The notes beneath the pieces are model-generated. The model did not search any database and was not told the origin of the DNA. It worked only from the letters and a program-made list of their open reading frames with translations. A program made the translations under genes and the position numbers. Positions 4,545 through 23,285 of a stretch of DNA of 64,000 bases are shown here, in pieces. Position 1 is the first letter of the stretch. Every line of letters begins with the position of its first letter. This DNA is from Lactobacillales bacterium. GTDB lineage: Bacteria > Bacillota_I > Bacilli_A > RF39 > UBA660. The stretch lies in contig SVAG01000002.1 of the NCBI GenBank assembly GCA_015059545.1, positions 1-64,000 of the forward strand, in the 5' to 3' direction.

Positions 4545-4573
4545 AAAATAAAAAAATAGTTTTTCAACTATTT
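4545..4573 (-). terminator. Terminator after the fibre operon lipoprotein
   Basis: Stem AAATAGTT/AACTATTT (4554-4561, 4566-4573) with a 4-nt loop and a T-rich run on the minus strand. The TAG stop of the lipoprotein lies in the stem. A near-identical 23-nt copy stands at 11682-11704 at the other end of the operon. Confidence 0.8.
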
Positions 4574-4975
4574 TAATATTTCATATTCAACTTTATGTGC
4601 TTTATCTAAATTCATATCTACATTACTTGTTATTTCTCTTGTTTCTCCTGCTGGTACTACTCCTCCTACATATCCTTGTAGCGTTACTATTGTATTTCCT
4701 TCTTTATCTTTTACATATATGTTAAATATTCTTACTTCTTTATCTTCTTTTGTTGGATTTGTTACTGCTGTTACTAATGTTGCTCCATTTTTTGTTGATA
4801 CTAATGATGTGTTTGTTAATTTTAATCCTTCTACTTCTTTATCTTCTATTACACCTTCATTTGTGTTATATGTTTTCTTTTCTTCTTTTGGTTCTTCTTT
4901 TTTATTACATCCACATCCTGTTATTATTCCTACACTTAATAACATTACTAAACTTATTATTATTTTCTTTTTCAT
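4568..4975 (-). CDS. Secreted lipoprotein (FxLYD-like)
   Basis: 135 aa. A lipoprotein signal peptide ends in the lipobox IITGC (Cys21), followed by a charged Lys/Glu linker (~24-45) and a beta-rich domain (~48-135) with the pattern of FxLYD or DUF-type extracellular Ig-like domains (TNTSLVSTKNGATLVTAV, then GYVGGVVPAGETREI). Expected to be lipid-anchored on the outer face of the membrane. It is the last gene of the fibre operon, 20 nt after the preceding fibre gene, with AAAGAGGT as ribosome site. A role in anchoring or assembling the fibre proteins is inferred from position only. Confidence 0.7.
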   Translation of the reverse strand: MKKKIIISLVMLLSVGIITGCGCNKKEEPKEEKKTYNTNEGVIEDKEVEGLKLTNTSLVSTKNGATLVTAVTNPTKEDKEVRIFNIYVKDKEGNTIVTLQGYVGGVVPAGETREITSNVDMNLDKAHKVEYEILK

Positions 4976-4995
4976 TTTATTACCTCTTTTCTTTT

Positions 4996-5802
4996 TTAAG
5001 CTGTTCTTTTGTACATATAAACTGTTATGTATGAATCTAGTATACTAAATGATGAGCCACTTCCTGTACTTCCTGAGTTAGAAGTTGAAGCTGCTCCTGT
5101 AGTCATTGCTGGTACTGTATGTGTATGAGCCCCACTTGATGATATTGAAAATGATGGAACTGAAATACTTCCAGTTACACTATGTGAGTGTGCACCAGCT
5201 GATGCAATGACTTGATTTTTTTTATTGTGTCCATTCCACCATCCAGAATTAGCTTTTATAAGATATCCAGCTGTATATATAGCTGTATCTGAATAATTAA
5301 CTAAAGCTGTACCTCCTACATCAAATGAATGACTATGCCCTCCAGCTGAACCAGAAGTAACCGATATTCCAGATACTGTTTTTGCAGATGTTGAATGAGT
5401 ATGAGCTCCACTTGATGATATTGTTGTAGCTGGTGTTGCATGTGTATGACTTATAGTATGTGTATGTGATGGTAAATGTGAAGTTGTTAATGTTACAGTA
5501 CTTGCACCTCCTGTTGAAGATGCAGTCCCTGTTGTTCCTCTTAAAGTTCTATTTGTTCCATATGCTTCCCATGTACCTCCATATTTAGTTGCTATTTTCG
5601 CTGCTGTATTTTCATCACTAGATGTTGTTATATAAATACTTCCTATAGGATAATTTTTTAAAAAAACATTTTTCTCTATATTATTTAATTTAGATATTAT
5701 AGTATCTATTTCTGCTTCTATTTCTGAATCAGCAAATACTATTAATGGAATATTAAATATTAATATTGTCAAAAAGTATAAAATTATATTTTTTATTTTC
5801 AT
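4996..5802 (-). CDS. Secreted phage tail-collar/fibre-tip protein A
   Basis: 268 aa. A signal peptide (hydrophobic 4-23, likely cleaved after FA at ~24) is followed by a short amphipathic helix (~28-47, possible coiled coil). The rest (~50-268) is a phage tail-collar/short-tail-fibre domain: YPIGSIYIT, GGTWEAYG, LRGTTGT, LPSHTH and four G-x-H-x-H blocks such as SGAHTHS, ending in YITVYMYKR. In T4 gp12 and related tips, H-x-H pairs bind metal along a trimer axis. Flanks are nearly identical to the next two genes, but the inner stretch (~145-200) is different. No other phage genes are near. Probably a surface-exposed, trimeric binding protein. Confidence 0.8.
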   Translation of the reverse strand: MKIKNIILYFLTILIFNIPLIVFADSEIEAEIDTIISKLNNIEKNVFLKNYPIGSIYITTSSDENTAAKIATKYGGTWEAYGTNRTLRGTTGTASSTGGASTVTLTTSHLPSHTHTISHTHATPATTISSSGAHTHSTSAKTVSGISVTSGSAGGHSHSFDVGGTALVNYSDTAIYTAGYLIKANSGWWNGHNKKNQVIASAGAHSHSVTGSISVPSFSISSSGAHTHTVPAMTTGAASTSNSGSTGSGSSFSILDSYITVYMYKRTA

Positions 5803-5812
5803 ACTTACTCTC

Positions 5813-6619
5813 CTAACTAACTCTTTTATACATGTATACTGTTATGTATGGGTCTAGCACGCTAAATGAACCTCCACTTCCTGTACTTCCCGAATTACTA
5901 GTAGAAGCTGCTCCTGTAGTCATTGCAGGTACTGTATGTGTATGAGCTCCGCTCGATGATATACTAAGCGCTGGTATTGTAACAGAACCAGTTACACTAT
6001 GAGTATGAGCTCCAGCCGATGAAATACTGGCATTTGATTTATTTGCACCTAACCAAAACGAATATGAATCTGTCGTTCCTTGAAACCCATAAGCATAACT
6101 TAAAAATGTAGTGTTAGCTCCAACTATGATTATTGTTCCACCTTCTGAATATGAATGAGTATGAGCTCCTGCTGATGCTAACTTTAATGAACTAAGAGAT
6201 AAATTTTTGGCAGCAGCAGAATGAGTATGAGCTCCACTTGATGATATTGTTGTAGCTGGTGTTGCATGTGTATGACTTATACTATGTGTATGCGATGGTA
6301 AATGTGAAGTTGTTAATGTTACAGTATTTGCACCTCCTGTTGAAGATACAGTCCCTGTTGTTCCTCTTAAAACTCTATTTGTTCCATATGCTTCCCATGT
6401 ACCTCCATACTTAGTTGCTATTTTCGCTGCTGTATTTTCATCACTAGATGTTGTTATATAAATACTTCCTATAGGATGATTGTTTAAAAATAAATTATCA
6501 TCTAATGTTTCTATTTTAGAAAGTAAACTATCATAATTAGCCTTAATCGTTTCGAGCGATAATACAGAAAATGGAAAGCATAAGATTAAAATAACTATTA
6601 ATTTAAAAAATTTTTTCAT
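5813..6619 (-). CDS. Secreted phage tail-collar/fibre-tip protein B
   Basis: 268 aa, same architecture as its downstream neighbour: signal peptide (~1-21), short helix (~25-46), then the tail-collar fold with HPIGSIYIT, LRGTTGT, LPSHTHSISHTH, repeated SGAHTHS blocks and the C-terminal DPYITVYMYKR. The first 65 residues of the collar and the last ~60 match proteins A and C almost perfectly, while the central part (~150-200, with an aromatic segment YSFWLG) does not. It has AAAGGAGG upstream, lies 14 nt after the giant prepilin gene and 10 nt before protein A, and so is co-transcribed with both. Confidence 0.8.
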   Translation of the reverse strand: MKKFFKLIVILILCFPFSVLSLETIKANYDSLLSKIETLDDNLFLNNHPIGSIYITTSSDENTAAKIATKYGGTWEAYGTNRVLRGTTGTVSSTGGANTVTLTTSHLPSHTHSISHTHATPATTISSSGAHTHSAAAKNLSLSSLKLASAGAHTHSYSEGGTIIIVGANTTFLSYAYGFQGTTDSYSFWLGANKSNASISSAGAHTHSVTGSVTIPALSISSSGAHTHTVPAMTTGAASTSNSGSTGSGGSFSVLDPYITVYMYKRVS

Positions 6620-6633
6620 TCCTGTACCTCCTT

Positions 6634-9600
6634 TTAACTAACTCTTTTATACATATATACAGTTATATATGGATCTAATACACTAAATGATCCACCACTT
6701 CCTGTACTTCCTGAATTACTAGTAGAAGCTGCTCCTGTAGTCATTGCTGGTACTGTATGTTTATGAGCTCCACTTGAAGCAATTGAAAGTGTTCCTGATG
6801 AAATTGTTCCTGAAATTGAATGTTCATGTCCTCCTCCTGATGCAGTTTTTGAAGAAACATTCTTATTAACATTATACCAATATCCACCTAAATTTGTATT
6901 TACATAACCTAATTCATAACCTTGTCCACTTGAACAAGTTGTAGTATCTATTCCAATAAAAAGTGAATCTGAACCTGTTGATAATCCATGTGTATGAGAA
7001 CCAGTTGAATTAGAAGTTAATGAATAAGATGCTGTTCCTGTACCAGTCGAATGAGTATGAGCTCCACTTGATGATATTGTTGTAGCTGGTGTTGCATGTG
7101 TATGGCTTATACTATGTGTATGCGATGGTAAATATGAAGTTGTTAATGTTACAGTACTTGCACCTCCTGTTGAAGATGCAGTCCCTGTTGTTCCTCTTAA
7201 AACCCTATTAGTTCCAAATGCTTCCCATGTTCCTCCATATTTACTTGCTATTTTCGCTGCTGTATTTTCATCACTAGCAATAGTTATATAAATACTTCCT
7301 ATAGGATGACTAGCAAGAAATTGATTATTTACTAATTCTGTATATTTATTATTTAATAAAGTATATATATTATTATAGAATTTTTCTAATTCAGATGATG
7401 ATAATGTATATTCTGTAGAATTACCTATAGTATCAGTTATTTTTAATTTAACTGTACTAGCATGTAAACTATTAAATGTATAACTAGAACTTGTACTTTC
7501 AACATAACTTGTTCCATCTATACTATAATAATATTTGTTTAATCCTGATTCTTTATCTGTACAACTCATTTTTACAGTCATACTACTTAATGTATAAGCT
7601 GATATTGTATTTGTACATGATGGAGCTGTTGTATCTATTCCACTTACTGTTTGACTACTTCCTGTTACATAGTTTGTTCCATCATTTACTCTTGCAATAA
7701 TTGTTCCATTTGATGTAAATGTTATTGCTCCACTATATGTCTTAAATGTTGTTCCTCCATCTAAACTATATTCATGTGTATATTTATTATCTGTATCTTT
7801 ATAGTCAATCGTTACTGTTTTACTTTTTGCCCATCCTTCTGGTGTTACTGTATATGTTGGAGCTGATATTGTAGTTGTTGCAATACTTTGCACACTACTA
7901 TCTAAATAATTTTTACTATTTAAACCATTATTTGTGTATGTTTTATTTATTACTCTTGTTTTTATTTTATATGTTCCACTTGTTAAATTATTAAATGTAT
8001 AACTATTTGTTGTTTGAATACTTGTCCATGTTGTTCCTCCGTCTTTACTAAATTGATATCCATAGATTCCTGATTCACTATCTGTTCCGCTTGCTACTAC
8101 TGTTATACTCTTACTTGTTCTTGTATAAGAGAATGTACTACTTGTTGGGGCTGTTGTATCTATACTTGTTATTGTTTGACTACTTCCTGTTACATAGTTT
8201 ACTCCATCTGTTATTCTTCCTATTATTGTTCCATTTGATGTAAATGTTACTTCACTACTATATGTTTTAAATGTTGTTCCTCCATCTAAACTGTATTCTA
8301 ACGTTCCTGATGGACATCCACTTGGATTTGTTATTTTTACTTTCTTACTTTGCGCCCATCCTGATGATGGTGTTATTGTATATGTCGGAGCACATAGTGC
8401 TGTTGTTGATACATTATATGTACTACTATCTAAGTAGTTTAAACTATTTATTCCCTCATTTTGATATGTTCCATTTACTGTTCTTACCTTTAATTTATAA
8501 GATCCTGTTTTTATATTACTAAATGTATATGTTTTTCCTGTTTGAATACTTGTCCATGTTGCTCCATCATCTTTACTAAATTGATATCCATAGATTCCTG
8601 ATTCACTATCTGTTCCACTTGCTGTTATTGTTATACTCTTTGTTGTCATTTCATATGTTAAACTACTCTTTGTTGGTTTTGTTCTATCTATTTGTGTTAT
8701 GCTTTGACTTGTTCCTGATACATAGTTTGTTCCATCGTTTACTCTTGCGATTACTGTTCCAGCACTTGTAAATTCTACTCCTTGTTTATATAACTCAAAA
8801 CTTTCTCCTCCATCTAAGCTATACTCATTCGTATATCCTGTTGGATATGTTATTGTTACTACTTTACTTTGTGACCATCCTGTTTTATCTATCGCATATA
8901 TTGGTTTTGTTATTTCTGTTGTTGGTACTGCTTCTGATATACTGTCTTTTGAGTTTAAACTATTTATTCCTTCATTCTTATATGTATTATTTATTACTTT
9001 TACTTTTATTGTATATGTTCCTGTTGTTAGTTTATCAAACGTATATGTTTTTCCCGTTTGGATACTTGTCCATGTTGCTCCATTATCTTTACTAAATTGA
9101 TATCCGTAGATTCCTGATTCTGTATCTTCTCCACTTGCTGTTACTGTTATACTCTTACTTGTTTTTGTGTATGTAAATGTTGCACTTGTTGGCGCTGTTC
9201 TATCTATATTTGTTACTGTTTGACTACTTCCTGTTACATAGTTTGTTCCATCATTTACTCTTGCGATTACTGTTCCAGCACTTGTAAATTCTATCGCACT
9301 ACTATATGTTTTAAATGTTGTTCCACTATCTATACTATATTCGTTTGTATATCCACTTGGATATGTTATGGTTACTTTTTTACTTTGTGCCCATCCTGTT
9401 TTATTTATCGCATATGTTGGTACATCTATTTTTGTTGTTTCTATACTTTGGGTATCACTTGCTTTTGAATTTAAACTATTTATTCCTTCATTGTTGTATG
9501 TATTATTTATTACTTTTACTTTTACTTTATAAGTTCCTGTTGTTAGTTTATCAAATGTATATGTTTTTCCTGTTTGAATACTTGTCCATGTTACCCCATC

Positions 9601-11640
9601 GTCTTTACTAAATTGATATCCATAGATTCCTGATTCACTATCTGTTCCACTTGCGATTACTGTTATACTCTTACTTGTTTTTGTATATGTAAATGTTGCG
9701 CTTGTTGGAGCTGTTCTATCTATATTTGTTACTGTTTGACTACTTCCTGTTACATAGTTTGTTCCATCATTTACTCTTGCGATTACTGTTCCTTCACTTG
9801 TAAATTCTATCGCACTACTATATGTTTTAAATGTTGTTCCACTATCTATACTATATTCATTTGTATATCCACTTGGATATGTTATCGTTACTTTCTTACT
9901 TTGTGACCATCCTGTTTTATTTATTGCATATGTTGGTACATCTATTGTTGTTGTTGCTATACTTTCTGTACTACTATCTTTCGAGTTTAAATTATTTATT
10001 CCTTCATTATTATATGTATTATTTATTACTTTTACTTTTACTTTATATGTTCCTGTTTTTAGTTTATCGAATGTATATGTTTTTCCTGTTTGAATACTTG
10101 TCCATGTTGCTCCATCATCTTTACTGAATTGATATCCATATATTCCTGATTCACTATCTGTTCCACTTGCTGTTACTGTTATACTCTTACTTGTTTTTGT
10201 ATATGTAAATGTTGCACTTGTTGGCGCTGTTCTATCTATATTTGTTACTGTTTGACTACTTCCTGTTACATAGTTTACTCCATCGTTTACTCTTGCAATT
10301 ACTGTTCCGTTTTCTTTAAATTCTATTGCTTGTTCATATTTAGTGAATTTTTCTCCACCATCTATACTATATTCGTTTGTATATCCATTTGGATATGTGA
10401 TTGTTACTTTTTTACTTTGTGCCCATCCTGTTTTATTTATCGCATATGTTGGTACATCTATTTTTGTTGTTTCTATACTTTCTGTTGTACTTTCTTTTGA
10501 ATTTAAACTATTTATACCTTCATTTTCATATGTATTATTTATTACTTTTACTTTTATTTTATATATTCCTGTTTTTAAGTTTTCAAATGTATATATGTTT
10601 TCTTTTTGGATACTTGTCCATGTTGCTCCATCATCTTTACTGAATTGATATCCATATATTCCTGATTCATTATCTACTGCATTTGCCGTTACTTTTATAC
10701 TCTTACTTGTTTTTGTATACGTAAATGTTGCGCTTGTTGGAGCTGTTCTATCTATATTTGCTACTGTTTGACTTGAACTTGTTACATAGTTTACTCCATC
10801 ATTTACTCTTGCGATTACTGTTCCGTTTTCTTTAAATTCTATTGCTTTTTCATATTTGTTAAATTTTTCTCCACTATCTATACTATATTCATGTTCATAT
10901 TGATTTTTTTCATCTTGATAATCTATTGTCACTACTTTACTTTGTGCCCATCCTGTTTTATCAATTAAATATATTGGTGTATTTATTGTTTTTGTTTTTA
11001 TTTTATCTTCTATTTTTGTTTCTATATTATTTCTATTTACTATTATTATTTCGACTTTATATTCTGTTTCATTTTTTAATCCTTCAAATATTACTTGTCC
11101 ATACTTTCCTTCTATTATTTTTTCTTTTCCATCTATTTTTACTTTATATTCTTTTATTCCTGATTCTGGATCTATTCCTAATTCTTCTTCTATTGTTACT
11201 GTTATACTTTTTGATGTACTTGATAAATGATATTTACTTTTATCTACTTTTGCTGCTGTATTATCTACTTTATAACATTCATCTATTTTTGCTATTTTTA
11301 ATTTCTTTATTGGTCCATTTACGCAATATTCTTTATCTTTTATAAAGTATGCTTCTATTTCTCCATCTTTTTCTATAAATCTTCCGCTTTCAAAATTATC
11401 TTTTAATTCTAATTTTGTTATATCTATTCCATCTTCTGGAATATCATCTATATCATTTTCCATCATGTAGTATTCTATTTCACCTGATGCTATTACTACA
11501 CTTGATTTTACTGATTCTCTTTTTGAACTTTCTACTATATTTATTGTTATTGGTACAGCTATTACTGCCACTAGTCCTATTATTACTATGACTGCTAATA
11601 ATTCTATTAGTGTAAATCCTCTTTTATTTTGTGATTTCAT
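6634..11640 (-). CDS. Giant prepilin-like adhesin with Ig-type repeats and phage tail-collar tip
   Basis: 1668 aa. The N terminus is a type IV prepilin or pseudopilin: basic leader ending in G8, then F9-TLIELLAVIVIIGLVAV with the mature Glu5 (E13), followed by a helical spine to ~60 and a short globular part to ~125. A half unit (~130-215) leads into seven repeats of ~172 aa from about residue 219 to ~1390. Each is a pair of beta-sandwich-like modules (xPTYAINKTGWAQSKKVTI... then DRTAPTSATFTYTKTSKSITV...ESGIYGYQFSKD). Residues ~1441-1668 are a tail-collar domain like that of the two downstream genes. Such N-terminal motifs need a prepilin peptidase and a pilus machine; none is in the window. 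Expected to be a long stalk carrying a receptor-binding tip away from the cell. First gene of the operon. Confidence 0.85.
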   Translation of the reverse strand: MKSQNKRGFTLIELLAVIVIIGLVAVIAVPITINIVESSKRESVKSSVVIASGEIEYYMMENDIDDIPEDGIDITKLELKDNFESGRFIEKDGEIEAYFIKDKEYCVNGPIKKLKIAKIDECYKVDNTAAKVDKSKYHLSSTSKSITVTIEEELGIDPESGIKEYKVKIDGKEKIIEGKYGQVIFEGLKNETEYKVEIIIVNRNNIETKIEDKIKTKTINTPIYLIDKTGWAQSKVVTIDYQDEKNQYEHEYSIDSGEKFNKYEKAIEFKENGTVIARVNDGVNYVTSSSQTVANIDRTAPTSATFTYTKTSKSIKVTANAVDNESGIYGYQFSKDDGATWTSIQKENIYTFENLKTGIYKIKVKVINNTYENEGINSLNSKESTTESIETTKIDVPTYAINKTGWAQSKKVTITYPNGYTNEYSIDGGEKFTKYEQAIEFKENGTVIARVNDGVNYVTGSSQTVTNIDRTAPTSATFTYTKTSKSITVTASGTDSESGIYGYQFSKDDGATWTSIQTGKTYTFDKLKTGTYKVKVKVINNTYNNEGINNLNSKDSSTESIATTTIDVPTYAINKTGWSQSKKVTITYPSGYTNEYSIDSGTTFKTYSSAIEFTSEGTVIARVNDGTNYVTGSSQTVTNIDRTAPTSATFTYTKTSKSITVIASGTDSESGIYGYQFSKDDGVTWTSIQTGKTYTFDKLTTGTYKVKVKVINNTYNNEGINSLNSKASDTQSIETTKIDVPTYAINKTGWAQSKKVTITYPSGYTNEYSIDSGTTFKTYSSAIEFTSAGTVIARVNDGTNYVTGSSQTVTNIDRTAPTSATFTYTKTSKSITVTASGEDTESGIYGYQFSKDNGATWTSIQTGKTYTFDKLTTGTYTIKVKVINNTYKNEGINSLNSKDSISEAVPTTEITKPIYAIDKTGWSQSKVVTITYPTGYTNEYSLDGGESFELYKQGVEFTSAGTVIARVNDGTNYVSGTSQSITQIDRTKPTKSSLTYEMTTKSITITASGTDSESGIYGYQFSKDDGATWTSIQTGKTYTFSNIKTGSYKLKVRTVNGTYQNEGINSLNYLDSSTYNVSTTALCAPTYTITPSSGWAQSKKVKITNPSGCPSGTLEYSLDGGTTFKTYSSEVTFTSNGTIIGRITDGVNYVTGSSQTITSIDTTAPTSSTFSYTRTSKSITVVASGTDSESGIYGYQFSKDGGTTWTSIQTTNSYTFNNLTSGTYKIKTRVINKTYTNNGLNSKNYLDSSVQSIATTTISAPTYTVTPEGWAKSKTVTIDYKDTDNKYTHEYSLDGGTTFKTYSGAITFTSNGTIIARVNDGTNYVTGSSQTVSGIDTTAPSCTNTISAYTLSSMTVKMSCTDKESGLNKYYYSIDGTSYVESTSSSYTFNSLHASTVKLKITDTIGNSTEYTLSSSELEKFYNNIYTLLNNKYTELVNNQFLASHPIGSIYITIASDENTAAKIASKYGGTWEAFGTNRVLRGTTGTASSTGGASTVTLTTSYLPSHTHSISHTHATPATTISSSGAHTHSTGTGTASYSLTSNSTGSHTHGLSTGSDSLFIGIDTTTCSSGQGYELGYVNTNLGGYWYNVNKNVSSKTASGGGHEHSISGTISSGTLSIASSGAHKHTVPAMTTGAASTSNSGSTGSGGSFSVLDPYITVYMYKRVS
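7590..10990 (-). repeat. Seven in-frame ~516-bp direct repeats in the giant adhesin gene
   Basis: Repeat boundaries taken at the PTYAINKTGW motif fall near 10984, 10459, 9943, 9427, 8911, 8394 and 7868, so the period is 516 nt (172 codons) for the central units and 517-526 nt at the ends. Units 2-4 are almost identical at the DNA level, the outer ones more diverged. This is what unequal crossing-over inside the gene would leave, and copy number may vary between strains. Confidence 0.9.
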
Positions 11641-11669
11641 ACTTTACACTCCCTTTACTATACATAACA

Positions 11670-11698
11670 ATTATATATTAAAAAAAATAGTTTTTCAA
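11670..11698 (-). promoter_or_regulatory. Candidate promoter of the fibre operon
   Basis: TTGAAA (11698-11693) and TATAAT (11675-11670), spacer 17 nt. The -35 element is inside the hairpin of the terminator of the upstream gene. The ribosome site AAAGGGAGTG precedes the ATG at 11640. Confidence 0.6.
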
Positions 11699-11704
11699 CT
11701 ATTT
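11681..11704 (-). terminator. Terminator of the 102-aa membrane protein gene
   Basis: Stem AAATAGTT/AACTATTT (11685-11692, 11697-11704) followed on the minus strand by a run of T. The TAA of the gene lies in the stem. The same 23-nt sequence occurs at the far end of the fibre operon. Confidence 0.8.
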
Positions 11705-20358: not shown

Positions 20359-21096
20359 TTATTTTAATTCATAATCATAATATTGTTCTATTAATTCTTG
20401 CTTGCTCATTACCCAATCATGTTTATTTGATATTATGATTGAATCACAATATTTACATTTATTTGAAGCACTATTTGTTATTTCTGCTCCACAATTTGGA
20501 CAATATTTATTAATTTCATTATCATTATCATTTTTTATAAATGTAATATTACAATTTTTAAATAGAGTATCCCCATTATTTCCTGAAATAAAATTATTTT
20601 TTTTATCAGTTATATATTCAATACAAGAAATTAATAAATTTATTGTTATAATAACATTATTATTTTCTTTTCTTACATCTATTATTTTAAAATTGTGAAA
20701 ATCTAATGCTTTTACTACCTTTTTCTGTTTTTTTTGTTTTAACATTTCTATTTGACTTATATACATATTATATAATTCATCAGTTAAACAAATTCTTAAT
20801 TCTTCTTCATCAAATGATGTTTCTGCTTTTTGTATTTTTTTATATAACTTAGAAATTTGAATTTCAAATTTTTTTTCATCAAAATCTGGAATTATATTTT
20901 TAATTACTTCTATATTTACTGTTTTAAATTGATTTAAAAGTTTTCTTTTTTGAAACTTACTAATTATTATTCCAGCAATAGTAACTAATATAATTATCCA
21001 TGGTATTAATGCGCCTAATTCATCGAATGAAAAATCACTTAATCCGTATAAACACAATATAAATGATATAAATCCAAATATTAATAATTTATCCAT
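20359..21096 (-). CDS. Tim44-like zinc-ribbon membrane protein 4
   Basis: 245 aa. Two N-terminal helices (~3-20 and ~30-47), a Tim44-like alpha/beta domain (~80-165; SFDEEELRICLTDELYNMYISQIEML) and a C-terminal zinc ribbon CPNCG...CKYC (~200-220). The Tim44-like fold is a membrane-associated domain related to NTF2; its bacterial role is unclear. Last of four tandem relatives; it starts 1 nt after the third gene. All four end in W-(V/I)-(M/L)-(S/T) or a similar segment after the ribbon, showing shared origin. Confidence 0.7.
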   Translation of the reverse strand: MDKLLIFGFISFILCLYGLSDFSFDELGALIPWIIILVTIAGIIISKFQKRKLLNQFKTVNIEVIKNIIPDFDEKKFEIQISKLYKKIQKAETSFDEEELRICLTDELYNMYISQIEMLKQKKQKKVVKALDFHNFKIIDVRKENNNVIITINLLISCIEYITDKKNNFISGNNGDTLFKNCNITFIKNDNDNEINKYCPNCGAEITNSASNKCKYCDSIIISNKHDWVMSKQELIEQYYDYELK

Positions 21097-21097
21097 T

Positions 21098-21619
21098 TTA
21101 TTTCATCTCCGTTAATATCCATTCATAGTCTTCTAAATTATAAATTGTTCCACAATATTCACATTTACCGCTATTATTAACATCCATATTAGATCCACAA
21201 CTAGGACACTTTCTTGCTTCTGGTTGTGTACTTGTATTTTTATTTTTTTCAAATGTTAAATAATTTGTTTTTTCTATTCTATCTACATCATTTCCATTTA
21301 CTGTTTTTTTTGTTTCTTTATCTATTCTATAATCTACATATCTTGATGTTAAATTTACTTTAACTATATATTTATCTTCTGTTTCTTCATAATCCATAAT
21401 ATATGAATTTTTAACATTTATCATATCATACATTTGAATTAAATTTTCTTCGTTTAATCTATCTAATTTTTCTTTTAATTTATTATATACAGCATCATTT
21501 ACAAAATGATCTATAGTTTCAAGTTCATTAAATGTAAGTGCTAAATGTATTTTAACAAATACATTATCTACATATGAAATAAATTTACTTTCTTCTAATA
21601 CATTACTTATATCTTTCAC
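21098..21619 (-). CDS. Tim44-like zinc-ribbon protein 3, no membrane helix
   Basis: 173 aa. Same Tim44-like domain (~10-120) and zinc ribbon CPSCG...CEYC (~138-158) as its three neighbours, but no membrane segment, so it is the soluble member. It carries a short polar linker (NKNTSTQPEAR) before the ribbon. Gaps of 12 nt upstream and 1 nt downstream show it is part of the same operon. It may pair with the membrane-bound members; this is inference. Confidence 0.65.
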   Translation of the reverse strand: MKDISNVLEESKFISYVDNVFVKIHLALTFNELETIDHFVNDAVYNKLKEKLDRLNEENLIQMYDMINVKNSYIMDYEETEDKYIVKVNLTSRYVDYRIDKETKKTVNGNDVDRIEKTNYLTFEKNKNTSTQPEARKCPSCGSNMDVNNSGKCEYCGTIYNLEDYEWILTEMK

Positions 21620-21631
21620 TTTAACACCTCT

Positions 21632-22447
21632 TTAATATTGACTTAATACTTCTTTTTTGCTCATTATCCAATTATTACTGTCTGATATGATTACTGAATT
21701 ACAATATTCACATTTATTTGATTCATTATTTGTTATTTTTGCGCCACAATTTGGACATTTTTTTAAACTAGACCTTTTTATATATTTTATAAAAGTCATT
21801 TCATATTCATAAGTCGTACTTATTTCATTATCACCTTTAACAACTTCTTTAGTATCTCTATTAATTATATAATCATTACATTCTATTTCAACAATTACTT
21901 TCAAAATAATATTTTGTTGATTTTTTTTAACGTCAATTATAAAAAATTCTTCTAATTCAAAATTTTTCATAATATTTTGTTGATTTTTTATTTCTAAGGT
22001 TTCCAATTGAGCTTTATACATATTAAACATTTCATCTGTTATATATTTTCTAAGTTCTTCATAATCAAAATTCATCCATGCCTTTTGAATATTTTTATAT
22101 ATATTAAAAATTTCATTTTTAATTTGTGTCTCACTTAAATTAATTTTTTTTGCTAATTTTTTACTTTTATTTTTCTTTTCTTCATATTCCTTTATTACAT
22201 TATCTCGTAGTTTTTTAAAATAAATTGCAGCTACTACCATTATAATTACTACAGCAATAACTTCAAATCCTGTTAATTCATCACTTCCACCACCTGATGA
22301 TGATATACTTGAACCAGATGATGAACTGCCTCCACTACTATAAGATCCTCCAAAACCTGAATCTGCTTTAACAATTAAATTTGTTTGAAACGTAAATATA
22401 AATAGTAATATTATTACTACTAAACTTATTAATTTCTTTTTCTTCAT
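21632..22447 (-). CDS. Tim44-like zinc-ribbon membrane protein 2 with Gly/Ser-rich outer segment
   Basis: 271 aa. Signal-like helix (~6-25, possible cleavage after KA), a Gly/Ser-rich extracellular stretch (~31-55), a second helix (FEVIAVVIIMVVAAIYF, ~61-77), a basic coiled part, the Tim44-like domain (~110-215) and a C-terminal zinc ribbon CPNCG...CEYC. The order secreted Gly/Ser patch-helix-Tim44 is known in bacterial Tim44-domain proteins. Second gene of the operon. Confidence 0.7.
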   Translation of the reverse strand: MKKKKLISLVVIILLFIFTFQTNLIVKADSGFGGSYSSGGSSSSGSSISSSGGGSDELTGFEVIAVVIIMVVAAIYFKKLRDNVIKEYEEKKNKSKKLAKKINLSETQIKNEIFNIYKNIQKAWMNFDYEELRKYITDEMFNMYKAQLETLEIKNQQNIMKNFELEEFFIIDVKKNQQNIILKVIVEIECNDYIINRDTKEVVKGDNEISTTYEYEMTFIKYIKRSSLKKCPNCGAKITNNESNKCEYCNSVIISDSNNWIMSKKEVLSQY

Positions 22448-22466
22448 ATTTTACTCCTTATCTAAA

Positions 22467-23285
22467 TTACTTTAATATTTTATTTTTACCTAATAATACA
22501 ATTTTAGATAATACTAATTTATGTTCATCTATTATTACTCTAGTATTACAATAATTACAATTATTAGTTGCTTCTCCAATTATTTTAGAACCACAGTTTG
22601 GACATATTTTTTCTTTATTTTCTATACTTTTTACAAATGTCATTTTATAGTGATTAAAATCTTTTTTATTTTGACTACTGTCTACTATTTCATTTGTATT
22701 TATATTCTTTATATATTCTTTACTTTCTAATGAAATATCCATATCAAAATATATTTTATTATCTTCTTTAAATGCATTTATAAGATAAGAATCAATATAC
22801 TCAATACCCTCTACTATTTTTTGTTGATTTTTTGTTTTTAATAAATTAATTTGAGCTATCAATAAATTATAAAATTCGTCTGTTACATAGTTTCTTAATT
22901 CATCCAAATTATTATTATTGCATGCATTTTCAATATTTTTATATATTTCAAATGTTTCTATCTTTAAATTTTCTATATTTCCGTTTTCTATATAGTATAA
23001 TACTTCATCTAATGATAAAGATTCTTTAATATAATTATCAATTATTTCATCATCAATTACTGAAGTTGTAAATAATTTTATAATTCCTTTAATACCATAT
23101 ACTCCATTGGTATAACGTCTTAATGATTCACATAAAAAAACAAATGAAATGGAAATAATTAAAAATACTAATGAGCAAGTTAAATCTGTTATATTGTCTC
23201 CATAAACTAAATAAATTATTCCGCAAATTGATATAAAAAACATAATAATTAACATTATTCTAGTTTTTATAATTCCTGACTTCAT
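22467..23285 (-). CDS. Tim44-like zinc-ribbon membrane protein 1
   Basis: 272 aa, first gene of the four. Two membrane helices (~9-28, ~35-53), a ~45-residue insert with IDDEIIDNYIKESLSLDEVLYYIENG that the others lack, then the Tim44-like domain (~105-210) and the zinc ribbon CPNCG...CNYC. GGTGG precedes the ATG, and TATAAT lies ~20 nt further up. Function not known. Confidence 0.68.
   Translation of the reverse strand: MKSGIIKTRIMLIIMFFISICGIIYLVYGDNITDLTCSLVFLIISISFVFLCESLRRYTNGVYGIKGIIKLFTTSVIDDEIIDNYIKESLSLDEVLYYIENGNIENLKIETFEIYKNIENACNNNNLDELRNYVTDEFYNLLIAQINLLKTKNQQKIVEGIEYIDSYLINAFKEDNKIYFDMDISLESKEYIKNINTNEIVDSSQNKKDFNHYKMTFVKSIENKEKICPNCGSKIIGEATNNCNYCNTRVIIDEHKLVLSKIVLLGKNKILK

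Follow-up and report, generated by a model that had tools for sequence, protein, structure and literature searches.

The modular prepilin and its neighbours

The window is the whole stretch of 64,000 nucleotides that was analysed, from a contig of a Lactobacillales bacterium. It contains four contiguous genes, A, B, C and D, all on the minus strand at 4568–11640 and separated by spacers of 14, 10 and 20 nt. The initial annotation had placed an operon at 4545–11704; the operon was borne out, with limits that were somewhat too broad. Gene A (6634..11640, minus strand) encodes a 1668-aa modular prepilin. As delineated by Pfam and NCBIfam matches, repeat spacing, HxH motifs and a structure model, this protein consists, in order, of a class III signal peptide, a putative pilin module, seven Ig/FN3-like repeats of ~172 aa, an OmpL47-type domain, a helix-prone segment of ~30 aa and a tip made of a collar and a needle with six HxH motifs. 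Genes B (5813..6619) and C (4996..5802), both on the minus strand, each encode a secreted collar/needle tip of 268 aa, recognised by Gp10_C and PHROGs matches and, for B, by a structure model that includes an N-terminal helix. Gene D (P0004; 4568..4975, minus strand) encodes a 135-aa lipoprotein with a weak match over 49 columns (hhalign 86%, E 5e-6) to the profile of an anchored protein of ~120 aa encoded after the tips in relatives. Two downstream genes with the same tip behind signal peptides, and a lipoprotein as the last gene, had been described before and were recovered here, the tips by Gp10_C matches, and by eye both the IITGC lipobox of P0004 and the signal peptides that precede the tips of B and C. 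Genes A, B and C are the only ones in the whole genome with a Gp10_C match, and the neighbours on both flanks are of housekeeping type, as read by eye.

Gene A is preceded by a promoter-like site without poly-G, TTGAAA-17-TATAAT (11 of 12; 11670..11698, minus strand), although the region has 44 sites of this type where shuffles gave 53.7, which makes the promoter call weak evidence. Elsewhere in the window, at 20359–23285, lie four tandem genes of 173–272 aa with a common C-terminal zinc-ribbon-like motif, CPxCG then CxYC, identified by eye.

The N-terminus of the gene A protein has the prepilin motif that the initial annotation had read as G8|FTLIELL, with cleavage between Gly8 and Phe9 and with Glu13 as Glu5 of the mature form. 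This motif was matched by Pfam N_methyl (PF07963) at residues 5–28 (E 2.5e-7; 11554..11628, minus strand, E 4.0e-9, 37.1 bits) and by NCBIfam TIGR02532, and the protein has the Gly-1, Glu5 and hydrophobic alpha1 by which class III signal peptides of modular pilins are recognised. The model of the pilin module consists of a helix at residues 11–61 and three strands at 85–108, with a mean pLDDT of only 46–61 over the strands; in a fold search the 50 matches listed fell on the FN3-like domain (top E 1.3e-3). The non-pilin modules of A are the Ig-like repeats and Gp10_C. The count of seven ~172-aa repeats holds, with an IDRTAP-like motif at residues 296, 468, 640, 812, 984, 1160 and 1335, a spacing of 172–176 residues. 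Gp10_C (PF21939) was matched at residues 1444–1543 (E 1.2e-7), corresponding to 7009–7311 within a tip that spans 6637..7311 (minus strand) and has a split collar with an inserted needle.

The tips of B and C matched Gp10_C with E values of 4.5e-13 and 4.9e-13 and a PHROGs tail family at about 1e-19. A profile built from 72 tips matched T4 gp10 (E 4.3e-14), a cyanophage tail fibre (6e-8) and T4 gp37 (1.6e-4) in the PDB, while P0002 as a single query reached gp10 only at E 0.071. These matches support the tail-collar tip that had been assigned to the long protein. All three window tips have the same plan, in which a collar is followed by six HxH motifs around a central variable head (gaps of 6, 15, 21–22, head, 21) and by a return of the collar, so that the HxH needle is inserted between two collar parts. 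The HxH repetition thus stands as annotated, but GAHTHS itself, which had been called repeated, occurs once in the long protein, where the other sites are GSHTHG, GGHEHS and GAHKHT. At the DNA level, the tips of A, B and C are 94–97% identical over the first 86 codons, 52–55% in the middle and 82–89% in the last part, which indicates that the head varies on a retained scaffold.

In the single-chain model of B, mean pLDDT exceeds 90 both over residues 1–60, which comprise the helix and first collar part, and over the last block; the needle is poor (mean 72.4; pTM 0.42). Foldseek with the single-chain tip gave gp10 as the top matches (best E 0.065) and zero matches at E 0.001 or better, and VIA-align of the tip model with gp10 (2fkk) gave a middling Z of 6.0 (rmsd 3.4, 59 residues aligned, 30% identical). 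Judged from sequence, the tip combines a variable head with a needle of six HxH motifs, the needle being inserted into a split collar. Its description as phage-derived is supported by the remote homology to phage tail families and not by any close match, since tblastn of P0002 at 1e-5 detected no near phage donor among 50,697 phage records; a profile search of viral contigs for the tip gave two loci.

Pilus machinery and poly-G tracts

The source genome (1.19 Mb, 93.5% complete, 1.5% contaminated) encodes PilB (PF00437), PilC (PF00482) and prepilin peptidase (PF01478). The PilB-type ATPase match scored 422 bits, and the genes for PilC and for the one prepilin peptidase adjoin on contig C2. Absence of the peptidase had been named as an observation that would count against a pilus-like base, and its presence together with PilB and PilC removes this objection. 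No PilT was accepted, as a second T2SSE match (90 bits) was CpaF/VirB11-like by eye and a third (18.9 bits) fell below the cut-off in a frame with five stops.

N_methyl matches numbered 24 in this genome and ranged from 8 to 30 across five genomes of the genus, this one included. Within the stretches extracted, 20 of the 24 matches gave complete frames, 15 of 291 to 2348 aa and five of 119 to 143 aa; of the other four, three are truncated and one enters masked sequence. Repeats were visible by eye in the large prepilins that were printed in full. Other very large modular prepilins lie at C2:89516 (2348 aa), C11:199206 (1902 aa), C1:52382 (1808 aa) and C9:19293 (1183 aa), while a giant frame of 24,037 aa was rejected as an artefact that enters masked sequence. 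The major pilin may be a prepilin of 143 aa (C3:110516), as its size and ribosome site suggest.

One leader with a poly-G tract of 9–11 G was found at five places in the source genome, mostly near contig ends, against none for a reversed-pattern control. Four of the five leaders run into prepilin genes. The reading frame is kept with 9 G (C6:278, L039; C8:27548, L034) and lost with 10 or 11 G (C7:28849, L031; C1:52382, L040); the remaining copy (C4:11, L049) has 9 G and is cut by the contig end. The C8 copy has the pilin module and repeats of gene A itself and continues off the contig. Similar G-rich leaders were seen in relatives at L150 and L141.

Poly-G tracts were also found with tip genes. 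One related genome of 1.4 Mb (G135) has 19 tip matches, most of which combine, by eye, a signal anchor with a segment resembling NVQDAIDGTC, and a run of 8–12 G is present in 13 of the 20 distinct tip genes of G135 with a visible start. Where at least 100 nt of upstream sequence was available, eight of 14 tip genes have a G run, placed between TTGACA and a TATAAT-like hexamer. In total, 145 kb of G135 contain 19 runs of at least 8 G against about 0.06 expected from composition, a count that includes L110, a repeat of L053 (49 of 49 sampled 200-mers exact). Among other tip genes a run of at least 7 G was present in three of 50 (L057, L094 and L141). Tracts of 9–14 G between -35-like and -10-like hexamers were located at L053, L062, L070, L078, L122, L130, L151 and L152, all in G135, and at L057. 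The related prepilin and tip genes with poly-G are probably phase-variable, though the tracts may contain assembly errors. The window has no run of seven G, and with the 17-nt promoter-like spacer this makes its operon look constitutive.

Recurrence of the layout and relations of collars and heads

One profile scan of genome contigs detected 44 tip loci. Tips were carried by two of five genomes of the genus and by 14 of 145 of the family, the source genome included. A search for the same operon, as had been proposed, identified 11 operons with secreted tips downstream of a long tip protein: the window, G108 (L133), L054–L057, L063, L065, L066, L068 and L075, the ten beyond the window being from Bacilli/Firmicutes MAGs and one relative. 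These operons were selected, from part of the loci, by this very layout, and their number is therefore not independent support for it. Six of the 11 have two secreted tips and five have one; a small anchored protein corresponding to D lies downstream in seven. The initial annotation had called B and C secreted 'tip variants'; they are secreted tips, and 'variants' is possibly the wrong word, as the layout elsewhere suggests partner chains.

The 5′ end of gene A lies beyond the contig edge in seven of the 11 operons. Among the four complete A proteins, the prepilin base is present only in the window. The three others (G108, L057 and L075) gave no N_methyl match; by eye they start with a signal-type N-terminus, and they further contain InlB-type repeats and a domain for which no family match was convincing. 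The design therefore does not depend on a pilus. This alternative base may resemble TasA/CalY, but the three proteins had no match to that family in Pfam, NCBIfam or the PDB, and the label was set aside. Beside the G108 operon, tandem secreted proteins of ~195 aa (L133:14305–16001; two complete, one cut) align to the N-terminal domain of the A proteins, with 20 and 22% identity to that of L075, and possibly represent a family of surface or filament subunits, with no convincing HMM match.

Pilin-collar fusions with no partner gene in view were found in G001 (three with the motif), G111 (L150) and G146 (L147), where the sequence extends well past the gene only for L135 and L147 and the contigs of L136, L138 and L150 end 0.15–0.5 kb downstream. 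In G001, one more copy is interrupted right after the pilin motif and another (L134) has a degenerate motif. These stand-alone proteins and the A proteins with partners were not told apart by a simple heptad score, although the helical segment of the former is longer by eye.

Collars and heads were compared in 28 chains. One tip alignment left out 17 of 86 tips (L013, L079, L085–L088, L090–L092, L094, L119 and L145), which are duplicates of the window or belong to loci that seem phage-like or distant. On the collar tree, changes of the A label numbered five against 8.9 in shuffles (2 of 500 as low), those of B seven against 8.9 (54 of 500) and those of C five against 5.5 (186 of 500), and the three labels jointly required nine changes against 12.8 (4 of 200). 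Thus the B and C labels were not clustered beyond shuffles among these 28 chains; nor do the A chains form one clade, and the collars of the window and G108 group by operon. By identity, the nearest collar was in another operon for 21 of the 28 chains and was of the same class in 20 of these 21.

Heads showed a different relation in clade II (L054–L057, L066 and L068), where the nearest head was in the same operon for 13 of 13 chains, compared with 16 of 28 overall. Heads of A and B in these six operons, four of which come from one MAG (CASPVX), were 62.2% identical within and 19.2% between operons, while their collars were 59.7% identical within operons and 60.3% between operons from A to A. 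The real pairing of clade II heads was the best of 720, and head lengths also matched (p 0.006). Heads did not match by operon in clade I (p 0.67 and 0.33, with only six pairings), and clade III consists of two operons only (p 1). In a test across all 11 operons, which mixes clades, 20,000 random pairings never equalled the real one on either measure. The combination of same-class collars between operons with matched heads in clade II suggests, at the level of sequence comparison, that anchored and secreted chains co-assemble. Gene conversion restricted to the head could also produce this matching and would itself need a reason.

A candidate surface adhesin

The operon very probably encodes a surface adhesin with a tail-type tip. 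The prepilin peptidase would cleave the pilin module of A, which PilB/PilC would then load into a type IV filament; alternatively, A would stay in the membrane at the filament foot. Display of this A on a pilus is somewhat more likely than not. The seven Ig-like repeats would serve as a spacer, and the C-terminus would be one of the chains that build a collar of T4 gp10/gp37 type, with a variable head and with an HxH needle stabilised by metal. B and C, once secreted, would be two more chains with the same collar and needle register, which join the single A chain via helix and collar so that the trimeric fold (A:B:C) is completed outside the cell. The lipoprotein D may aid the capture or folding of the secreted chains at the membrane, and the ligand of the head would be a host glycan or protein, or the surface of another bacterium. 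Hetero-assembly of anchored and secreted chains is the leading but tentative proposal, and the same reserve applies to the scheme as a whole, with A as a modular minor pilin, an A:B:C hetero-trimer as tip, D as helper and a ligand-binding head.

An A:B:C tip would explain the secreted tips beside the long protein, the common HxH register in the window and the helix-prone segment before the collar, which was modelled for B and seen by eye in the other chains. Against hetero-assembly, the collars of the window and G108 cluster by operon, as duplication or gene conversion explains, the middle parts of the window tips are only 33–42% identical, and five of the 11 operons have a single secreted tip. 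Three independent homotrimers would instead place A3 at the pilus tip or surface, with B and C as free soluble trimers acting as decoys, bridging factors or separately retained adhesins. The needle of T4 gp37 is described as a homotrimer (PMC6957217), the partnerless pilin-collar proteins of G001, G111 and G146 indicate that a pilin-anchored homotrimer is feasible, and the model gives B a helix and collar of its own. However, homotrimers leave unexplained the matched heads of clade II on class-specific collars and the repeated pairing of long and secreted proteins, the latter in operons chosen by that pairing, and we regard them as somewhat less likely than hetero-assembly.

The pilin module may also be a mere membrane anchor or stop-transfer helix, so that A is never polymerised and stands as a surface stalk. 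The non-pilin N-terminus of the same-layout proteins in G108, L057 and L075, read by eye as signal-type, fits such a stalk, and 24 prepilin motifs in 1.19 Mb are many for one pilus; Gly-1, Glu5 and alpha1 alongside the PilB/PilC/PilD set argue against it and make it an improbable reading. The collar homology to phage tail families would also accord with tips that serve no purpose in the host and are left over, or were captured, from the tail-fibre genes of a prophage. This reading was rejected as extremely improbable on gene context and recurrence: the neighbours on both sides are housekeeping-type by eye, the genes have signal peptides and a prepilin base, the layout is retained across species, no near phage match was found among the 50,697 records, and loci that are phage-like by eye, such as L145, differ.

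The initial annotation knew of no named system with this combination, but modular pilins (PMC8179133) and pilus tips with operon-encoded secreted partners (PMC9565799) have both been described. The S74 domain is a phage-fibre chaperone domain. Within the modular pilins, a class of more than 1,200 proteins and 264 architectures, S74 is given as a peptidase module, the most extreme multi-domain protein has 860 residues, and the grafted binding module is predicted to lie at the filament tip, according to the two sources (PMC8179133 for class size and length; PMC8179133 and PMC9934059 for S74 and tip location). With PilB, PilC, prepilin peptidase and 24 prepilin motifs in the genome, A fits this class (PMC8179133). 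Like the described members (S. sanguinis PilB/PilC; PMC8179133, PMC9934059), A has a class III signal peptide, a putative pilin module and a grafted module; it differs in its 1668 aa, seven repeats, tail-collar/needle tip and adjoining secreted tip genes. The text covered on modular pilins made no mention of a tail-collar tip, of secreted tip genes or of a swapped base, and these features appear new relative to that class.

T4 gp37 is described as a trimer with a needle inserted in a collar and seven irons along the needle (PMC6957217). The window tips resemble this needle and the collars of gp10 and gp12 (PDB 2fkk, 2xgf) in the split collar, inserted HxH needle and distal head, but they are host-encoded on a pilin or signal peptide, have six HxH motifs against seven iron sites and possibly form a hetero-trimer. 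In CofB-CofJ and TcpB-TcpF, an operon-encoded secreted protein is presented on a minor-pilin tip (PMC9565799). By gene order and by signal peptides read by eye, B and C may likewise be operon-encoded secreted partners of the putative minor pilin A. The secreted protein there binds a pilin trimer via an N-terminal signal, whereas B and C would share the collar fold of the A tip. Among open-licence PMC records, searched by titles and abstract beginnings, no report of a pilin-collar fusion or its poly-G switching was found, and the literature search gave no paper on adhesins of this kind in the small-genome Bacilli lineage.

Taken further, and with more doubt than the assembly scheme itself, these Bacilli may have made a phage tail-fibre tip into an adhesin that is a split hetero-trimer, with one chain on a swappable base, be it a type IV pilin or another anchor, and two secreted chains that complete a metal-locked needle outside the cell. 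Chain identity would stay with the collars, while heads would be exchanged in matched sets; poly-G would switch related genes for pilins and tips on and off, giving the bacterium itself a receptor-binding repertoire like that of phages. If true, phage receptor-binding tips have been reused by bacteria as pilus or surface adhesins, secreted partners complete a three-chain fold extracellularly, and naturally variable heads are held on a stable trimeric scaffold. For this small-genome lineage of Bacilli, these genes are a likely attachment repertoire.
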